Source of the DNA: an uncultured Bacteroidales bacterium
GTDB lineage: Bacteria > Bacteroidota > Bacteroidia > Bacteroidales > UBA932
Assembly: GCA_900319405.1 (NCBI GenBank)
Contig: ONOH01000012.1
Location: 25,137 to 77,027, forward strand
DNA: 51,891 nt
Direction: 5' to 3'
The notes beneath the pieces are model-generated. The model worked only from the letters and a program-made list of their open reading frames with translations, made no database searches and had not been told where the DNA came from. Made by a program: the position numbers and the translations under genes. Of the stretch, positions 7,505 through 37,548 are shown one piece after another; position 1 is the first letter of the stretch; every line of letters starts with the position of its first letter.

Positions 7505-7849
7505 ATGGATAGCAAGAAGAAAATCCCAGTAAACACCGTTACGCGAGACATCAAGACCCTCGCTGCCCCTACCGGCAACATCTACGAATCCGTGGTCATC
7601 CTTTATAAGCGCGCCAATCAGATTGCCGTCGCCGAGAAAAAGGAACTGATGAAAAAACTGGACGAGTTCCGGGGAGACCGCGACACAATGGATGAGGTCT
7701 TCGAGAACAAGGAGCAGATTGAAATCTCCAAATACTATGAGCGCCAGCCCAAACCGGACCTGGTAGCCATTTCCGAATTCGAAAACGGAGACTTGTTCTA
7801 CCGCAAGGCCCAAAACGACAATCCCATCGACATTTCTAGCGGCAAATAG
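7505..7849 (+). CDS. rpoZ: RNA polymerase omega subunit, Bacteroidota type
   Basis: 114 aa, matching the phylum-specific omega/Rpb6-like family: NTVTRDIKTL...PTGNIYESVVILYKRANQI, then EVFENKEQIEISKYYERQPKP. Omega helps fold and assemble the beta' subunit. The gene is 52 nt downstream of bamD and 3 nt upstream of recN. The spacer has only an imperfect -7 candidate (TATCTTAT at 7475-7482). Confidence 0.88.
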   Translation: MDSKKKIPVNTVTRDIKTLAAPTGNIYESVVILYKRANQIAVAEKKELMKKLDEFRGDRDTMDEVFENKEQIEISKYYERQPKPDLVAISEFENGDLFYRKAQNDNPIDISSGK

Positions 7850-7852
7850 GCA

Positions 7853-9493
7853 ATGCTTTACAGCCTCACCGTCTCAAACTACATTTTGATCGGCTCTTTG
7901 GAAACCCGGTTTCCGGAGGGCCTTGTCATTATTAGCGGAGAGACGGGAGCTGGAAAATCCATCCTCCTCGGAGCCCTTTCGCTGGTTCTCGGCGCCAAGG
8001 CCGAATCCGGGATGGTGGGACCGCACTCGGACAGTTGCGTAGTGGAAGCGGAGTTTGGCCTGGATGAAGACATCCGGACGGTTCTGGCCGATGCCGACCT
8101 TCCCGCCGAAGGGGACCGGCTCATCCTCCGCCGCACCGTAGCCCGAAGCGGCCGCTCCAGGAGTTTCGCCAACGACGAACCCGTCAGCGTCAATGTCCTG
8201 CAGGAGTTGGCCACCCGCTTGGTAGACATCCACTCCCAGCACCAGACACTCCGCCTGTCGGACCAGCGTTTCCGGATGGAAGCCCTGGACCTCTGGGCCG
8301 GAGCAAGCACAGCACGAAGAGCCTGCACTGCTGCCTGGACCGCCCTTCAGGAAGGAAGGCGTGAACTCGCATCCCTGCAGGACCGGCTCACCCGCGCCCG
8401 GCAGGAGCAGGAGTACAACCAGGCCCGCTGGGAACAGCTGGACCGGGCACGCCTCAGGGAAGGAGAACTGGAAGAGCTGGAAAGCGAGCAGAAGCAGCTG
8501 GCCCACGCCGAAGAAATCAAGGAAAACCTGTATAGGGCCCAGCATCTTCTGAGCCCGGAAAACGAAGAGGCCCTTTCCCGGCGCCTGCGGGAATGTGCCA
8601 GAATGCTGGAGAAAGCCGGCGCCTTCCTGCCGGAGCTGCAGGGTCTGGCCGCGCGGCTGGCATCGGCCCGGTTGGAAGTCGAAGACATCGCCGCCGAGAT
8701 TGTCACGGCCAACGAGCGCACGGACACATCGCCCGAAAGGCTCCAGACCGTGGAAGACCGTCTTTCCCTGCTTTACGAGCTGATGCAGCGGTACGGTGCC
8801 GCTTCCGTCGAGGAACTCATCGCCGGCCGCAACCGGCTGGAAAGCCTGGTGACAGATGCCACGCATCTGGTTTCGCAGGTGGAATCGGCCCGGAAAGCGG
8901 TGGAGGAGAAGGAGCGTCTTTTTGCAGGGCATTGCGAGCAGCTGCACCGGCTTCGCAAAGAAGGGGCGCCCGGATTTGCAACGGCCATTCAGGAGCAGCT
9001 TCGCGCCCTGGAACTGGATCACGCCCTTTTCCGGGTGGAGCTGGAAGACAGCACCCCGGGAGCCGACGGCGGAGACAGCATCCATTTCCTCTTTTCTTCC
9101 ACCGGGCATACACCGGCCGATGTGGCCAAAACAGCCTCGGGCGGAGAGCTTTCCCGGATTATGCTCAGCATCAAAGCCGTTATGGCCCGCTTCACGCATA
9201 TGCCCACTTTGATTTTTGACGAAATCGACAGTGGCGTCTCCGGCAGTACAGCCGACAAGATGGGCTCCCTCGTCTGTGCGATGGGAACCGAAATGCAGGT
9301 TTTCGCCATCACCCACCTTCCCCAGGTAGCCGCCAAGGGGAATGCCCATTACCTTGTATCCAAAACCGGCGATTTGACGTCGGTCAGATGCCTTGACGAC
9401 AAAGGCCGCGTGCAGGAACTGGCCCGGATGCTTTCGGGCTCCACCATCACGCCCGCTGCCATTGCCAACGCCCAATCCCTTTTGCACCCATAA
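7853..9493 (+). CDS. recN: DNA repair protein RecN
   Basis: 546 aa SMC-like ATPase of recombinational double-strand-break repair. Walker A GETGAGKS is at residues 29-36, a long coiled coil spans about 155-370, the ABC signature ASGGELSRIMLSIK is near 425, and Walker B TLIFDEIDSGVSG near 455, followed by the ITHLPQVAAKG switch His. Length is typical. Begins 3 nt after rpoZ. Confidence 0.96.
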   Translation: MLYSLTVSNYILIGSLETRFPEGLVIISGETGAGKSILLGALSLVLGAKAESGMVGPHSDSCVVEAEFGLDEDIRTVLADADLPAEGDRLILRRTVARSGRSRSFANDEPVSVNVLQELATRLVDIHSQHQTLRLSDQRFRMEALDLWAGASTARRACTAAWTALQEGRRELASLQDRLTRARQEQEYNQARWEQLDRARLREGELEELESEQKQLAHAEEIKENLYRAQHLLSPENEEALSRRLRECARMLEKAGAFLPELQGLAARLASARLEVEDIAAEIVTANERTDTSPERLQTVEDRLSLLYELMQRYGAASVEELIAGRNRLESLVTDATHLVSQVESARKAVEEKERLFAGHCEQLHRLRKEGAPGFATAIQEQLRALELDHALFRVELEDSTPGADGGDSIHFLFSSTGHTPADVAKTASGGELSRIMLSIKAVMARFTHMPTLIFDEIDSGVSGSTADKMGSLVCAMGTEMQVFAITHLPQVAAKGNAHYLVSKTGDLTSVRCLDDKGRVQELARMLSGSTITPAAIANAQSLLHP

Positions 9494-32051: not shown

Positions 32052-33293
<1,242 letters not shown>

Positions 33294-33338
33294 CCGCCTT
33301 TATCCCAAAAAACCTGTCCTACAGCATACCCATCTGGT

Positions 33339-33356
33339 CAAAAACACCTGTTTTTG
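33339..33356. repeat. AT-rich hairpin between ftsZ and the REP element
   Basis: CAAAAAC-acct-GTTTTTG, a perfect 7-bp stem with a 4-nt loop, about 45 nt after the ftsZ stop. It could act as a weak terminator for ftsZ, although no T-tract follows, or be part of the adjacent REP array. Confidence 0.4.
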
Positions 33357-33359
33357 TCC

Positions 33360-33439
33360 GGGTGGGTAGGCTTTCGCACGGGCAGCCTCGCAAAAACGCC
33401 CCCTTTTGCAAGGGTGGGTAGGCTGGACTTTGTTATCGG
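33360..33439 (+). repeat. REP-like element, copy 1 (adjacent to RAYT)
   Basis: The element opens with GGGTGGGTAGGC (33360-33371), which recurs at 33412-33423. The GTAG tetranucleotide is followed by an AGGCT/AGCCT hairpin and then by GCAAAA-acgccccc-TTTTGC. Bases 33370-33439 are repeated in inverse orientation at 37145-37214 with 5 mismatches in 70. The last bases run into the stop codon of the transposase gene. A GTAG head plus hairpin is the hallmark of REP sequences processed by RAYT enzymes. Confidence 0.7.
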
Positions 33440-34365
33440 TCTTTCCCGTAGTCCTTGGAACGGAGAGTTTGCAGGATAATCTGCTCCGGGATTCTCAGGC
33501 ATAGACTCAAGTCTCTGGCCGACAAACGGTATCTGTCACTGAGTTCTACGGCAGCCCGGCATTTCTCCTGCGATGACAGATTGGCCGGACTTTTTTCCGG
33601 AAACAGAATCCTGAGCATCCGGGAGACAATATCCCGGACCTCTTCGGAAGAAAAGGAGATTTCCTCTCCCAATGAATCTGAAAGGGAGACGAAGGATTCG
33701 TAATCCTTCACCAGGCGGCTCAGGTAGTCCTTGGGCGAAGAGAACAGTTCCCGTATCTTTTCCGTATGGACAAAGTTCCTGGGAAGGATGCCCAGCTCGG
33801 GATGGATTTCCCATTCGGGGGGAAACGACTCCATACTTCCCGTAAGCCGGTTCACTTCCCGCGAGGGCATCTGTCCGGACGGAATGCCCCGGACGGCCTC
33901 CGAGAACTGGTTGAACAGCAGATAACTGCTCCCCCACAAATGCCCTCCCGGAAGGCAATAGCCTTTTTCATAAGGGTTCCGGGCCAGGTAAAGGACGTTT
34001 TTTCTGAAGGCTTCGGCCGACTCCACGGGGATGAGTCTGAAGTCGTAGCTCTCCGGGAGCGGAGGATAGCCGTCGTAATGGAGCTCCATATTGAGTTTCC
34101 ATTTGATGAAGCCGAACAAATCCACACAGGTGGATCCGGAAGCGCTCAGGAGGATGTGCAGATGATTGGGCATCAACTCGAATGCGTAGATGCTCAGGTC
34201 GTACTTCAGGGAGGCAAGACCCATCATCGCCATTCCGTCCCGGAACTCCTCCCTGTCGTTGAAGATTCTTCCTTCCTTCCATCCATCCGTACACAGGTGA
34301 TAGCAGCCCTTTTTCCAACTGCGGTACAGCTGATGCCTTTTCTGTTTTGCGTCCATGCATTCCAT
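33433..34365 (-). CDS. REP-associated tyrosine transposase (Y1_Tnp/RAYT)
   Basis: 310 aa. The N-terminal HUH single-strand nuclease domain shows GCYHLCTDG, FELMPNHLHILLSA with the HLH metal pair at His68/His70, and YLARNPYEKGY, whose Tyr126 is the likely nucleophile. RAYTs cut and join DNA at GTAG-headed REP hairpins and are usually single-copy and domesticated. The C-terminal part (about 235-310: SSQEKCRAAVELSDRYRLSA...LRIPEQIILQTL) looks like a helix-turn-helix DNA-binding region. It is convergent with ftsZ, with a REP between them. The start may instead be Met4. No terminal inverted repeats of an insertion sequence are seen. Confidence 0.82.
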   Translation of the reverse strand: MECMDAKQKRHQLYRSWKKGCYHLCTDGWKEGRIFNDREEFRDGMAMMGLASLKYDLSIYAFELMPNHLHILLSASGSTCVDLFGFIKWKLNMELHYDGYPPLPESYDFRLIPVESAEAFRKNVLYLARNPYEKGYCLPGGHLWGSSYLLFNQFSEAVRGIPSGQMPSREVNRLTGSMESFPPEWEIHPELGILPRNFVHTEKIRELFSSPKDYLSRLVKDYESFVSLSDSLGEEISFSSEEVRDIVSRMLRILFPEKSPANLSSQEKCRAAVELSDRYRLSARDLSLCLRIPEQIILQTLRSKDYGKDR

Positions 34366-34408
34366 TTTTCACAAAAATGGGCAAAGGAAGGGGCATCCGC
34401 AAGGGCTG

Positions 34409-34444
34409 AAAAAAACAGGCCGCCCGAAACGCGGTCCGGGCGGC
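34409..34444 (-). terminator. Rho-independent terminator of gltX
   Basis: Read on the minus strand: an 8-bp stem GCCGCCCG/CGGGCGGC with a 10-nt loop, followed by CTG and seven T (A-run 34409-34415 on the plus strand). It lies 33 nt after the gltX stop. The rest of the 34366-34477 gap holds only a weak -7 candidate (TTCCTTTG) for the transposase gene. Confidence 0.85.
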
Positions 34445-34477
34445 ACAGAAAGCACTTTCCTGAAAAAAAACAGATTC

Positions 34478-36262
34478 TTATTTCCTTCCCAGTCGGTCGG
34501 CCACGTAGCCCATCCGGCGAGCGAATTCCCTGCGGCCGATGAACGAAAGGATATCGGCGATGCCCAGGCCGCTGGCGGCGCCGGTAAGCGCCAGGCGGAG
34601 ACTGTTCATCACCTTGCCCATCGGGTACTCTTCCTTCTTGATGTACTCCTCGATGGCGGACTCCAGGCTTGCCTTGTCCATAGCGCCCCGGTAGCTGTCC
34701 AGGTCGTCAAAGCCGAAGGCGGCGCCGGAGATGTACTGCGTAATCTCGAAACAGTATTCGTAGTGATCTTCCTTCCAGAACTTGTCCACGTCCTTGGCCA
34801 GGAAGGGAGCCGTGAGGCTGTCGTCGTACACTTTTGCACGGGGGTCTGCCGGGCGATTGGGGTCTGCAGCCTTGGTGGGCAGACCGGCGCCGGCCTTGAC
34901 GCCATAGGTCCCGAATTCCTCGGGGGAGATGAAAAGGTAGGCGGCGATGTCCCAGAAGTCGGCCACGAAGGTAGCGCGCTCCTTGACCAGTTCCACCACG
35001 GCCTGCACGTATTCGCGGGTGTAGATGTGGTTTTTGAAATCGGCCCCGAAGCCTTCGAAACTGGCGCCAGCGGTGAGGGCGTTGCAAGGGCAGTCCACCA
35101 CTTTCATTCCGTGCTCCTGGAGGACGGGAATGAAGAGGTCTGTGAGCTCCTGCGCCGTTTTCATCCGGAGGTACTCCTTGTTGTACCATTTGGCCTTGTC
35201 CGGGTTGAACTTGGCACCGGCTTTCTGCACCTTGTCCAGGGAGAAGGCCTGCACCAGCTCCTCCATCGTGAACAGTTCCCGCTCGTCTCCGGGATTCCAG
35301 CCCAGCATGGCCAGCATATTCACGAAAGCTTCCGGGAAGTAGCCGTCCTCGCGATAGCCGCGGGAGACTTCTTCCGTTACCGGGTTCTTCCAGCGCAGCG
35401 GGAACACCGGGAATCCCATTTTGTCACCGTCGCGTTTGGAAAGTTTTCCATTGCCGATGGGTTTGAGCAGCAGGGAAAGATGGGCGAAACGGGGCATCGT
35501 GTCTTTCCAGCCGAAAGCCTCGTACAGGAGGTAGTGAAGGGGCAGGGAGGGAAGCCATTCCTCTCCGCGGATGACCTCCGTGATTTCCATCAGATGGTCG
35601 TCCACGATATTGGCGAGGTGGTAGGTGGGGAGTTCATCGGCCCTTTTCCAGAGCACTTTGTCGTCCAGGGTGTCCGTGTTCACCTCCACGTGGCCGCGGA
35701 TCAGGTCTTCCATTTCCACGATACGGCCCAGCGGCATCTTGAAGCGGATGGTCCAGTCGGTGGTGGTTTCCAAAAGCCGCTTCACTTCTTCCGGGCTCAG
35801 GGTGAGCGAATTGCGGAGACCACCCCGCGTGGCGGAATTGTACATGAACGTCTCCTTGGCAGCCTCGGCGGCAGCGCGACGGCAGTCCAGCTCTTCGGCC
35901 GAATCAAATGCGTAGTACGCCCATCCGGCAGCCACCAGCTGCTCTGCATACTGGCGGTAGATGGCGCGCCGCTGGCTTTGCCGGTAGGGAGCGTGCGGAT
36001 GACGGGGGGATGCCGTTTCCACCACCTTTCCGTCCTGGTCCACGCCCTCGTCGGGGATGATGCCGCACCAGCCCAGGGCTTCGATGATGTATTCTTCGGC
36101 CCCGGGGACGAAACGGTTGGAATCCGTATCCTCGATGCGGAGGATGAAGTCTCCTCCTTTCTGTTTGGCATAGAGGTAATTATACAGGGCCGTGCGCACG
36201 CCGCCCATATGGAGCGGACCGGTGGGGGACGGGGCAAATCTTACGCGGGTTCTTTTTTCCAT
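34478..36262 (-). CDS. gltX: Glutamyl-tRNA synthetase
   Basis: 594 aa class I synthetase charging tRNA-Glu. The HIGH-type motif is PSPTGPLHMGG (11-21), RIEDTD follows at 42-47, and KLSKRDG (about 280) is the KMSKS equivalent. The C-terminal helical anticodon domain is complete. It is clearly longer than the usual 470-510 aa; extra segments are visible in the C-terminal half (for example the AGAGLPTKAADPNRPADPRA stretch). Confidence 0.95.
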   Translation of the reverse strand: MEKRTRVRFAPSPTGPLHMGGVRTALYNYLYAKQKGGDFILRIEDTDSNRFVPGAEEYIIEALGWCGIIPDEGVDQDGKVVETASPRHPHAPYRQSQRRAIYRQYAEQLVAAGWAYYAFDSAEELDCRRAAAEAAKETFMYNSATRGGLRNSLTLSPEEVKRLLETTTDWTIRFKMPLGRIVEMEDLIRGHVEVNTDTLDDKVLWKRADELPTYHLANIVDDHLMEITEVIRGEEWLPSLPLHYLLYEAFGWKDTMPRFAHLSLLLKPIGNGKLSKRDGDKMGFPVFPLRWKNPVTEEVSRGYREDGYFPEAFVNMLAMLGWNPGDERELFTMEELVQAFSLDKVQKAGAKFNPDKAKWYNKEYLRMKTAQELTDLFIPVLQEHGMKVVDCPCNALTAGASFEGFGADFKNHIYTREYVQAVVELVKERATFVADFWDIAAYLFISPEEFGTYGVKAGAGLPTKAADPNRPADPRAKVYDDSLTAPFLAKDVDKFWKEDHYEYCFEITQYISGAAFGFDDLDSYRGAMDKASLESAIEEYIKKEEYPMGKVMNSLRLALTGAASGLGIADILSFIGRREFARRMGYVADRLGRK

Positions 36263-36281
36263 ATTTTCTGCAATTGCACTG

Positions 36282-36289
36282 CAAAGATA
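36282..36289 (-). promoter_or_regulatory. -7 promoter box of gltX (TATCTTTG on minus)
   Basis: CAAAGATA on the plus strand, 19 nt upstream of the gltX ATG. It lies back-to-back with the folP box, 12 bp apart. Confidence 0.75.
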
Positions 36290-36301
36290 GTGATTTTTTC
36301 C

Positions 36302-36309
36302 TACCTTTG
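36302..36309 (+). promoter_or_regulatory. -7 promoter box of folP (TACCTTTG)
   Basis: Ends 6 nt before the ATG at 36316, so the transcript should begin at or next to the start codon. Confidence 0.7.
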
Positions 36310-36315
36310 CCGTGG

Positions 36316-37119
36316 ATGGAACGCAAGATTCATATTATGGGCATCGTGAACCTCAACGGAGATTCCTTCTATGCCTCCAGCCGGGCCGATTCGGCTACGG
36401 CCGTCCTCCGTGTACGACAAATGTGGGCCGACGGGGCCGATGTCGTGGACCTCGGAGCCTGCTCCACCCGTCCCGGTTCCGCACAGCCCTCCCAGGAAGA
36501 GGAGTGGGCCCGTCTCGAGCCCGTCCTGACACAACTGGCTGATGAAAGAGGCTCTTCCTTCCATCCCGCCATTTCCATCGACACCTACAGGAGCGGAATT
36601 GTCCGGCGGGCCTTCGATATCATCGGCCCTTTTATGGTGAACGACATCAGTGCCGGCGCCATGGATTCCGAAATGCTGGAAACGGTGGGACGGCTGGGCC
36701 TTCCCTATGTAGCGATGCATATGAGAGGAACTCCCGAGACGATGCAACAACTCACCTCCTACGAAGACATCGTGGCCGAGGTAAAGGCGTATTTTGAGGA
36801 TTTCGCTTCAAAAGCCCGCGAAGCCGGCATCCGGGAATGGATTCTGGACCCGGGCTTCGGCTTTGCCAAAACCCTGAAACAGAACTACGAATTGCTGGGC
36901 GGGATGGACCGGCTCCTTTCCCTGGAGCATCCCATCCTTGTGGGAGTGTCTCGTAAAAGTATGATTTACAAGTTGTTCGAAATCACCCCGGAGGAATCCC
37001 TTCCCGCTACTCAGGTGGTGCATCTTGCCGCCCTGGAGCGGGGCGCCTCCTGGCTCCGCGTCCACGATGTCGCCGAGGCCGTCCGTACCGCCCGCCTCTT
37101 TTCCCTTCTCTCCCGATAG
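36316..37119 (+). CDS. folP: Dihydropteroate synthase
   Basis: 267 aa TIM barrel joining p-aminobenzoate to dihydropterin diphosphate in folate synthesis. DLGACSTRPGSAQPS (pterin site), SIDTYRSGIVRRAF, VNDISAG, HMRGTPETMQ, ILDPGFGFAKTLKQN and VGVSRKSMIY are all present. Loop 1 reads MGIVNLNGDSFYASSR, where the usual form is GILN(V/L)TPDSF, so Thr-Pro is Asn-Gly here. The start was fixed by the promoter; a GTG at 36313 is also possible. Confidence 0.93.
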   Translation: MERKIHIMGIVNLNGDSFYASSRADSATAVLRVRQMWADGADVVDLGACSTRPGSAQPSQEEEWARLEPVLTQLADERGSSFHPAISIDTYRSGIVRRAFDIIGPFMVNDISAGAMDSEMLETVGRLGLPYVAMHMRGTPETMQQLTSYEDIVAEVKAYFEDFASKAREAGIREWILDPGFGFAKTLKQNYELLGGMDRLLSLEHPILVGVSRKSMIYKLFEITPEESLPATQVVHLAALERGASWLRVHDVAEAVRTARLFSLLSR

Positions 37120-37144
37120 CACCTGGCCGGGCGACCATCGCAGG

Positions 37145-37214
37145 CCGACAACAAAGCCCCGCCTACCCATCCCTGCAAAAGGGGGCGTTTTTGCGAGGCT
37201 GCCCGTGCGAAAGC
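37145..37214 (-). repeat. REP-like element, copy 2 (inverted)
   Basis: The reverse complement of this stretch equals 33370-33439 at 65 of 70 positions, including GTAGGC and the GCAAAA/TTTTGC hairpin. It fills most of the 108-bp gap between the convergent genes folP and divIC. No transposase gene lies beside this copy. Confidence 0.75.
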
Positions 37215-37227
37215 GTTATTTCGTGGA

Positions 37228-37548
37228 TTATTCTACGATATAGACATCGTCTCCGGGAGCGGCGAAGTGGTAGGTGTCGCGGGCGAAGGATTCCAGGGAA
37301 TCCCGGTTGTTGCGCAGATCGTCAATCTCCTGCTGCATCCGGTCAATCTCGGACTGGAGTCGGGCCATTTCCTTTTCCTGGCTTTTCACCTCCACCGTGG
37401 CACGGATCCAGTTGAGCACGCTGTTATGGGCGAAAAAGAGCAGCCACAGGGCCACCAGCGTGGTGACAACAATCACGAACGGTATCAGGTAGTTGTGATC
37501 ACTGCGCTTGAGGATGGACAGGCGTGCTTTCTTCTTCTCCTGTTCCAT
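37228..37548 (-). CDS. Septum formation initiator DivIC/FtsB-like
   Basis: 106 aa from the ATG at 37548. A charged N-terminus is followed by one membrane span (about 21-42, YLIPFVIVVTTLVALWLLFF) and a coiled coil (EKEMARLQSEIDRMQQEIDD). The conserved closing segment reads LESFARDTYHFAAPGDDVYIVE, matching the DivIC family ending. Partner of FtsL and FtsQ in septal synthesis activation. An in-frame TTG at 37557 would overlap the upstream gene and is less likely. Confidence 0.88.
   Translation of the reverse strand: MEQEKKKARLSILKRSDHNYLIPFVIVVTTLVALWLLFFAHNSVLNWIRATVEVKSQEKEMARLQSEIDRMQQEIDDLRNNRDSLESFARDTYHFAAPGDDVYIVE

Follow-up and report, generated by a model that had tools for sequence, protein, structure and literature searches.

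The stretch of DNA analysed here (the window; 51,891 nt of contig ONOH01000012.1, from an uncultured Bacteroidales bacterium) carries a RAYT-type transposase gene and two inverted copies of a palindromic repeat, in the order ftsZ, REP, RAYT, gltX (minus strand), folP (plus strand), REP, divIC. As the initial annotation had it, the locus lies by the end of the dcw cluster; ftsZ is directly upstream. The features are as follows.

33324–33371, plus strand: REP half A, 48 nt, delimited by gapless alignment with the A halves of the 11 dispersed 100-bp copies
33370–33442, plus strand: left arm of a 73-nt inverted repeat, from self-comparison of the window
33372–33375, no strand: 4-nt spacer, TTTC (GATC in 6 of the 11 dispersed copies)
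33376–33423, plus strand: REP half B, 48 nt, direct repeat of half A at a shift of 52
33433–34365, minus strand: RAYT-type HUH/Y1 transposase, intact ORF of 310 aa with an N-terminal HUH/Tyr domain and a long C-terminal extension
34478–36262, minus strand: gltX, within the block enclosed by the inverted REPs, which relatives carry in either orientation
36274–37119, plus strand: folP (Pterin_bind, dihydropteroate synthase type), same block as gltX; start codon approximate
37142–37214, minus strand: right arm of the 73-nt inverted repeat, from self-comparison of the window
37161–37208, minus strand: second window copy, a single REP half B, 46/48 identical to 33376–33423, inverted

The inverted pair beside the RAYT, described earlier as 70 bp long, was recovered as 73 nt of 92% identity with its arms about 3.7 kb apart, and in a genome search the second copy matched the first at an E value of 1.1e-21, far beyond chance. 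The core said to occur twice in the first copy does so: GGGTGGGTAGGC is exact at 33360 and 33412, and recurs with one mismatch at 37161. The full RAYT-adjacent element extends over 33324–33423, and the second window copy has one 48-nt half only. The full element is a direct doublet with a shift of 52 nt, half B being reversed relative to the dispersed copies. An Rfam search of positions 33200–37300 gave no match at E values up to 0.1.

At 11 further places of this genome the element takes the form of an exact, REPIN-like inverted doublet of 100 bp (48 + 4 + 48 nt), and all 11 copies align without gaps over exactly 100 columns. Their halves A and B stand head-to-head, with GTAGGC-type ends meeting at the 4-nt centre, and three copies have the termini GCATAC..GTATGC. 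In arrangement these copies match REPINs, in which two inverted REPs can form one hairpin. The window element and the half element bring the family to 13 places in the assembly, which is 2.13 Mb long and 89% complete, so that the genome does hold more than the two copies first noticed, but not the tens that the initial annotation envisaged. The two window halves at 33376–33423 and 37161–37208 agree with the other copies at 28–40 of 48 positions, versus 46 of 48 between themselves. Two of the dispersed copies overlap no ORF of at least 70 aa, eight overlap only ORFs of 73–120 aa, and one overlaps a 292-aa ORF that is without a Pfam match and lies antisense to a DUF4294 gene whose end precedes the element by 19 nt. 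The copies sit between convergent, codirectional and divergent ORFs, not at gene ends alone. Since six of the 11 have flanks common to several copies (C24, C44, C22 and C8 together, and C18:26903 with C39:34546), independent insertions must be fewer than 11. No target-site duplication was seen by eye in the flanks of the dispersed copies.

Folded as single-stranded DNA, one dispersed copy is far more stable than its shuffles (z of −7.9 and −8.1 for the two strands), and the window element is moderately so (−3.3 and −2.5); the stability of C44, another dispersed copy, does not exceed that of most shuffles (z of −1.1), and the single window halves fold no better than shuffles (+0.6 and +1.2). 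Covariation within this repeat family is nearly nil, at an uninformative 1 of 27 pairs. Across the group, the 3' flanks of RAYT genes fold somewhat better than control flanks (median z of −2.0 vs −1.3, p = 5e-4; 48 flanks, with the second lineage, L071–L075, excluded).

The transposase scores below the cut-off of both curated family models, with weak matches to Pfam Y1_Tnp (E = 1.4e-3, 19.2 bits; cut-off 23) and NCBIfam REP_Tyr_transpos (NF047646; E = 2.5e-5, 24.2 bits; cut-off 80). The same models match 26 and 22, respectively, of 35 aligned family members (E up to 0.1) that form a subset of the RAYT sequences collected. When a profile of these 35 was compared with the PDB, the best chains were transposases of 140–143 residues (2xm3, 2xo6 and 2xma; E about 0.0013), and HTH-type matches to the family were weak and limited to single members. 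The HUH histidines His68 and His70, together with Tyr126 and Asn130, are invariant in 47 of 47 aligned proteins, the window RAYT included (rows with internal stops or shorter than 280 aa were excluded from this alignment and tree). An intact ORF, consistent though weak family matches and invariant catalytic residues all uphold the earlier assignment of 33433–34365 to a Y1/HUH transposase of RAYT type, and with its HUH motif and predicted catalytic tyrosine the protein belongs to the RAYT or TnpA-REP group (class 2 TnpA-Y1). Its tyrosine motif is YLARNP, and its tryptophan motif WGS. The closest paralog in the same genome is 42% identical, which points to one gene per repeat type and not to a self-copying IS.

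RAYT relatives were detected in 124 of 151 same-genus genomes (150 and this one; E up to 1e-5), the nearest to the window protein being 48% identical. This particular RAYT occurs in this genome only, so that co-occurrence for its own repeat family rests on one genome. The titles of 16 named relatives read Bacteroidales in 14 cases and Bacteroidia in two, and six of them mention a ruminant gut site. The element was sought in the same 151 genomes by scoring up to five candidates in each, a procedure that may miss weak copies; a full copy was found in one of the 150 others (G038; one copy, 97% identical), and G104 has a 21-nt core match only, which by its surroundings is part of another repeat. 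The G038 copy occurs without a close RAYT, in an assembly that is 83% complete. A RAYT–REP link would have been called into question by a genome total of two copies, or by equal copy numbers in relatives lacking the transposase. Neither was observed, all three genomes with an element match having RAYT matches as well, albeit with this RAYT in one of them only. The suggestion that the RAYT has a cognate repeat family is thus borne out by the dispersed copies and by the near absence of full copies from the 150 other genomes.

Two other repeat families were followed through ten genomes, four of which (G013, G041, G052 and G067) have no RAYT match. Three genomes, G149, G064 and G003, make up the L064 RAYT clade, and all of them have the L064 repeat, which none of the 7 others has; the L057 repeat is present in G054 but in none of the 9 others. 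In these four genomes the matches number 5, 5, 6 and 4. About half (3, 3, 3 and 2) fall within about 2.3 kb of the RAYT, and only 2, 2, 3 and 2 lie away from it. Pairing of a repeat family with a RAYT was observed in three cases. More generally, in 13 of 15 further loci the RAYT 3' flank has another copy within the locus at a distance of 300 nt or more, compared with 25 of 97 control ORF flanks (p = 1e-5; the controls were called mechanically as ORFs of 100 aa or longer, and some may be spurious). Without two duplicate loci (L140 and L143, which duplicate L076 and L087) the count is 11 of 13 (p = 6e-5). The flanking repeats of related RAYTs differ in sequence, yet stand in the same place and recur locally. 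Palindromic repeats, as predicted from sequence, lie beside the gene and are dispersed in the host genome, and in relatives the copies cluster near the gene. Two REP elements do not make up the whole system: six RAYT genes of this genome were examined, and five have an adjacent 51–52-nt repeat array. For the paralogous RAYT of C30, two clear repeat copies were found in this genome; they share the contig of that gene and lie no more than about 1.2 kb from it. G038 and G005 give weaker matches (71–73%).

The feature that these diverse repeats have in common is their spacing. Strong direct repeats (at least 70% identity over 38 nt, shifts of 30–75 scanned) are present in 23 of 48 RAYT 3' flanks (53 minus the five of the second lineage, L071–L075), as against 12 of 133 controls (p = 4e-8). 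The shifts in the 23 are 51 (eight flanks), 52 (twelve) and 53 (three), with no others, and the 12 control flanks are likewise all at 51–53; 25 of the 48 RAYT flanks have no such array at the threshold used. A wider scan covered 38 relative loci (387 kb), which had been chosen because they contain a RAYT, a REP or ftsZ and so were not drawn at random. At 80% identity over 40 nt and shifts of 20–150, it placed 18 of 27 matches at 51–53. Of the 13 matches no more than 400 nt from a RAYT, 11 had this spacing, as did 7 of the 14 others. Shuffling 20 of these loci left no direct repeats at 75%. With a laxer threshold of 70%, arrays at a shift of 51 or 52 were seen in this genome beside the RAYTs of C31, C27, C17, C42 and C59, which include both lineages; no adjacent 51–53 array was found for the C30 RAYT. 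Open-access literature on RAYTs and REPs of Bacteroidetes or Bacteroidales, represented mostly below full-text level, yielded no spacing of 51–53 nt. By helix geometry, 52 bp correspond to about five helical turns. As the repeat sequences diverge while the array spacing stays at 51–53 nt, constraint appears to act on spacing and hairpin shape, and the enzyme may read these and not a GTAG tag.

Several further arrays were noted along the way. In C59 of this genome (G000; L095, with the RAYT at about 301–1155), which belongs to the second lineage, a near-identical direct repeat of more than 100 bp lies on both sides of the gene; it is built on the palindromes GCTCCAGGTGTCC and GCAGACCAGGAGC, and a 51-nt array adjoins it. 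Another family, CCGTGTGCAAAAC..TTTTGC.CAC, forms a 51-nt tandem at four places of this genome (L100:4173 and 12598, L101:12841 and L102:10376), one of them beside the C27 RAYT. A direct 51-nt array is also present at L105:7653.

The GTAG head ascribed to the repeats does stand at the end of units of the window's own family, but it is not enriched beside related RAYTs, being present in 15 of 48 flanks versus 46 of 133 controls (p = 0.72; control flanks near RAYTs or containing N were removed, and L143 and the second lineage were excluded). GTAG was therefore rejected as a common hallmark. GTGG is not enriched either (30 of 48 vs 90 of 133, p = 0.59), and a GT[AG]G guide at the hairpin foot, which characterizes RAYT/TnpA-REP systems, was not found group-wide. 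The most overrepresented 6-mer in RAYT flanks is AGCACG/CGTGCT (12 of 48 vs 3 of 133, p = 9e-6 over 1740 words). A core of the form A-run/GGC/A-run, picked after the flanks had been viewed, occurs in 14 of 30, with 0.3 expected by shuffling. In further loci it occurs in 5 of 15 vs 9 of 97 controls (p = 0.02), or in 4 of 13 without the two duplicates (p = 0.05); this genome's C30 flank, which is among the 15, had been viewed beforehand. The core is frequent, not universal, and was rejected as a universal mark. Upstream of the genes, the palindrome CCGTTT..AAACGG, perhaps an operator or a hairpin, is found in 3 of 30 RAYTs of the main lineage and was not found in the window. Palindromes of this type directly precede the RAYT start codon in L054, L056, L087 and L067. 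For the counts of GTAG, of the 14-of-30 core and of this palindrome, L077, L079, L086, L091, L084 and L085 had been set aside because they duplicate, or nearly duplicate, other loci.

We favour, at a probability of roughly two in three, the reading that the locus holds a REPtron-like pair, namely a single-copy HUH/Y1 transposase and a low-copy, non-autonomous palindromic element that is most likely its substrate. The 100-bp doublet, made up of two imperfect hairpins of 48 nt each, would be the mobile unit. Folded single-stranded DNA is the substrate of TnpA-REP and IS608 according to the accounts of them at hand, and by analogy the RAYT would bind the doublet in that form. Tyr126 would then nick and rejoin the element, which would be copied or moved to other intergenic sites. 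Enzyme–repeat pairs would have diverged across the group until the repeat sequences seem unrelated.

The alternative that survives best, although we consider it improbable, is that the repeats are ordinary intergenic hairpins, such as transcription terminators or mRNA stabilisers, that have grown by recombination, and that the RAYT merely adjoins one of them. The units do carry GC-rich hairpins with A/T runs, the 3' flanks of control ORFs also have cores and 51–53-nt arrays, and half of the strong tandem matches away from RAYTs show the same spacing. Yet the repeats are enriched beside RAYTs, two families are restricted to genomes with the cognate RAYT, and neither the fixed 100-bp length nor the presence of copies in convergent, codirectional and divergent gaps would be expected of such hairpins. 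Somewhat less probable still is that the element is a MITE of another transposase, with the RAYT gene itself a target or hitch-hiker. Inverted termini in three copies and the exact length are MITE-like, and cleavage by the RAYT is an activity that we infer; however, the lack of a target-site duplication by eye and the different-sequence repeats that related RAYTs carry at the same place argue against it. That an idle IS200-like transposase happens to lie by a segment duplicated during a gltX–folP inversion would account for the window halves being closest to each other and bounding the flipped block, but is very hard to reconcile with an intact ORF with invariant catalytic residues and with the element at 11 further places.

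The RAYT and its element resemble the RAYT/REP and REPIN systems of Escherichia coli and Pseudomonas in having an HUH/Y1 gene beside its own palindromic repeats and inverted doublets between genes. Those repeats are GTAG-tagged (PMC3733652), as are chiefly the pairs described in the part of the literature at hand, and REPs usually exceed 100 copies per genome (PMC2817692), whereas here there are 13 places, 4–6 matches for two other families and no group-wide GTAG. The REP/RAYT pair of the window is of low copy number, and a subclass lacking GTAG is already known from Bacteroidetes. In the portion of that account at hand, subclass 2.6 TnpA-Y1 (Bertels group 5) has a median length of 179 aa, the motifs YIH[QN]NP and WQ, and, around its genes, atypical secondary structures without GTAG that recur at other places of the genome (PMC6006769). 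The window RAYT is likewise an HUH/Y1 protein of Bacteroidetes with such flanking structures, but with 310 aa, YLARNP and WGS at the tryptophan it falls outside the subclass as there described, and the 51–53-nt spacing is absent from what the same portion says of it. Subclass 2.1, which has a C-terminal HTH, the motifs YIELNP or Y[IV]HLNP and no REP-like sequences (PMC6006769, as far as consulted), probably equals the TIRYTs, flanked by moderately abundant non-GTAG inverted repeats in dimeric or clustered families with the TIR consensus GGGGWSAS (PMC3733652, likewise). The window RAYT shares the long protein with a C-terminal extension and the non-GTAG inverted repeats in dimeric or clustered families, but differs in its YLARNP motif and in having REP-like repeats. 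By these published descriptions, as far as they were to hand, the window-type proteins are apparently set apart from both subclasses in length or motif.

A wider reading, which we offer tentatively and regard as rather doubtful in its entirety, is a Bacteroidales expansion of long RAYTs that would have given up the GTAG guide, each enzyme recognising its own sequence family. Two hairpin units set at a fixed 51–53-nt register, about five helical turns, would form the basis of the recombination complex. Spacing would then be the conserved code, and sequence would diversify rapidly; several systems would coexist per genome, and inverted copies would be standing inversion sites. Relatives in 124 of 151 genomes of one genus, with varied repeats and a common spacing, form a natural series for studying how transposases choose their DNA, and the same series serves the study of repeat–enzyme co-evolution. 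It may also link REPs to visible flips of gene order beside ftsZ.

Such flips are seen around gltX and folP. G037 has ftsZ, gltX (minus), folP (plus) and divIC without a RAYT and with about 200 bp from ftsZ to gltX, and G005 agrees with it as far as the contig reads, part of the gap being N. G126 and G038, the two closest relatives by FtsZ among ten fetched (95.6% and 93.7%), have folP (minus) and gltX (plus) between ftsZ and divIC, with no RAYT there. Same-contig ftsZ–gltX neighbours, among the matches listed, have the window orientation in at least 8 relatives and the opposite one in at least 19; these counts and the flips in G126 and G038 indicate that block orientation changes repeatedly. 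G038 has its own inverted repeat of 123 nt and 95% identity at both ends of the block, and within this repeat lies a similarly organised element, GCATAC..GATA..GTGC, which aligns without gaps to that of the window genome at 54/100 identity. On the favoured reading, inverted copies would act as recombination sites that flip the intervening DNA, here gltX–folP. As no such repeats were seen by eye at the block ends of G126 and G037, we only infer that REPs cause the flips. Another ORF of transposase look was noted by eye in the ftsZ–gltX gap of G028 (L176, 3160–4500), so that transposases may have landed here repeatedly.

For the C22 copy, the flanking sequence had no match in any of six relatives. 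At the C24 site, where the other five relatives matched the upstream gene only, G038 shares the neighbours but lacks some 360 bp, the element among them, and its two matches overlap by 54 bp on a unit repeated on both sides of the element in the window genome. This fits an element that was gained after divergence from G038, along with a local expansion of repeats, though a loss in G038 may be the alternative. The C24 REPIN is surrounded by a GGCCGATTTTGCG..GCGTTTGGGG repeat (L109, about 7740–8250) of which G038 has one unit, an instance of nested repeat families.
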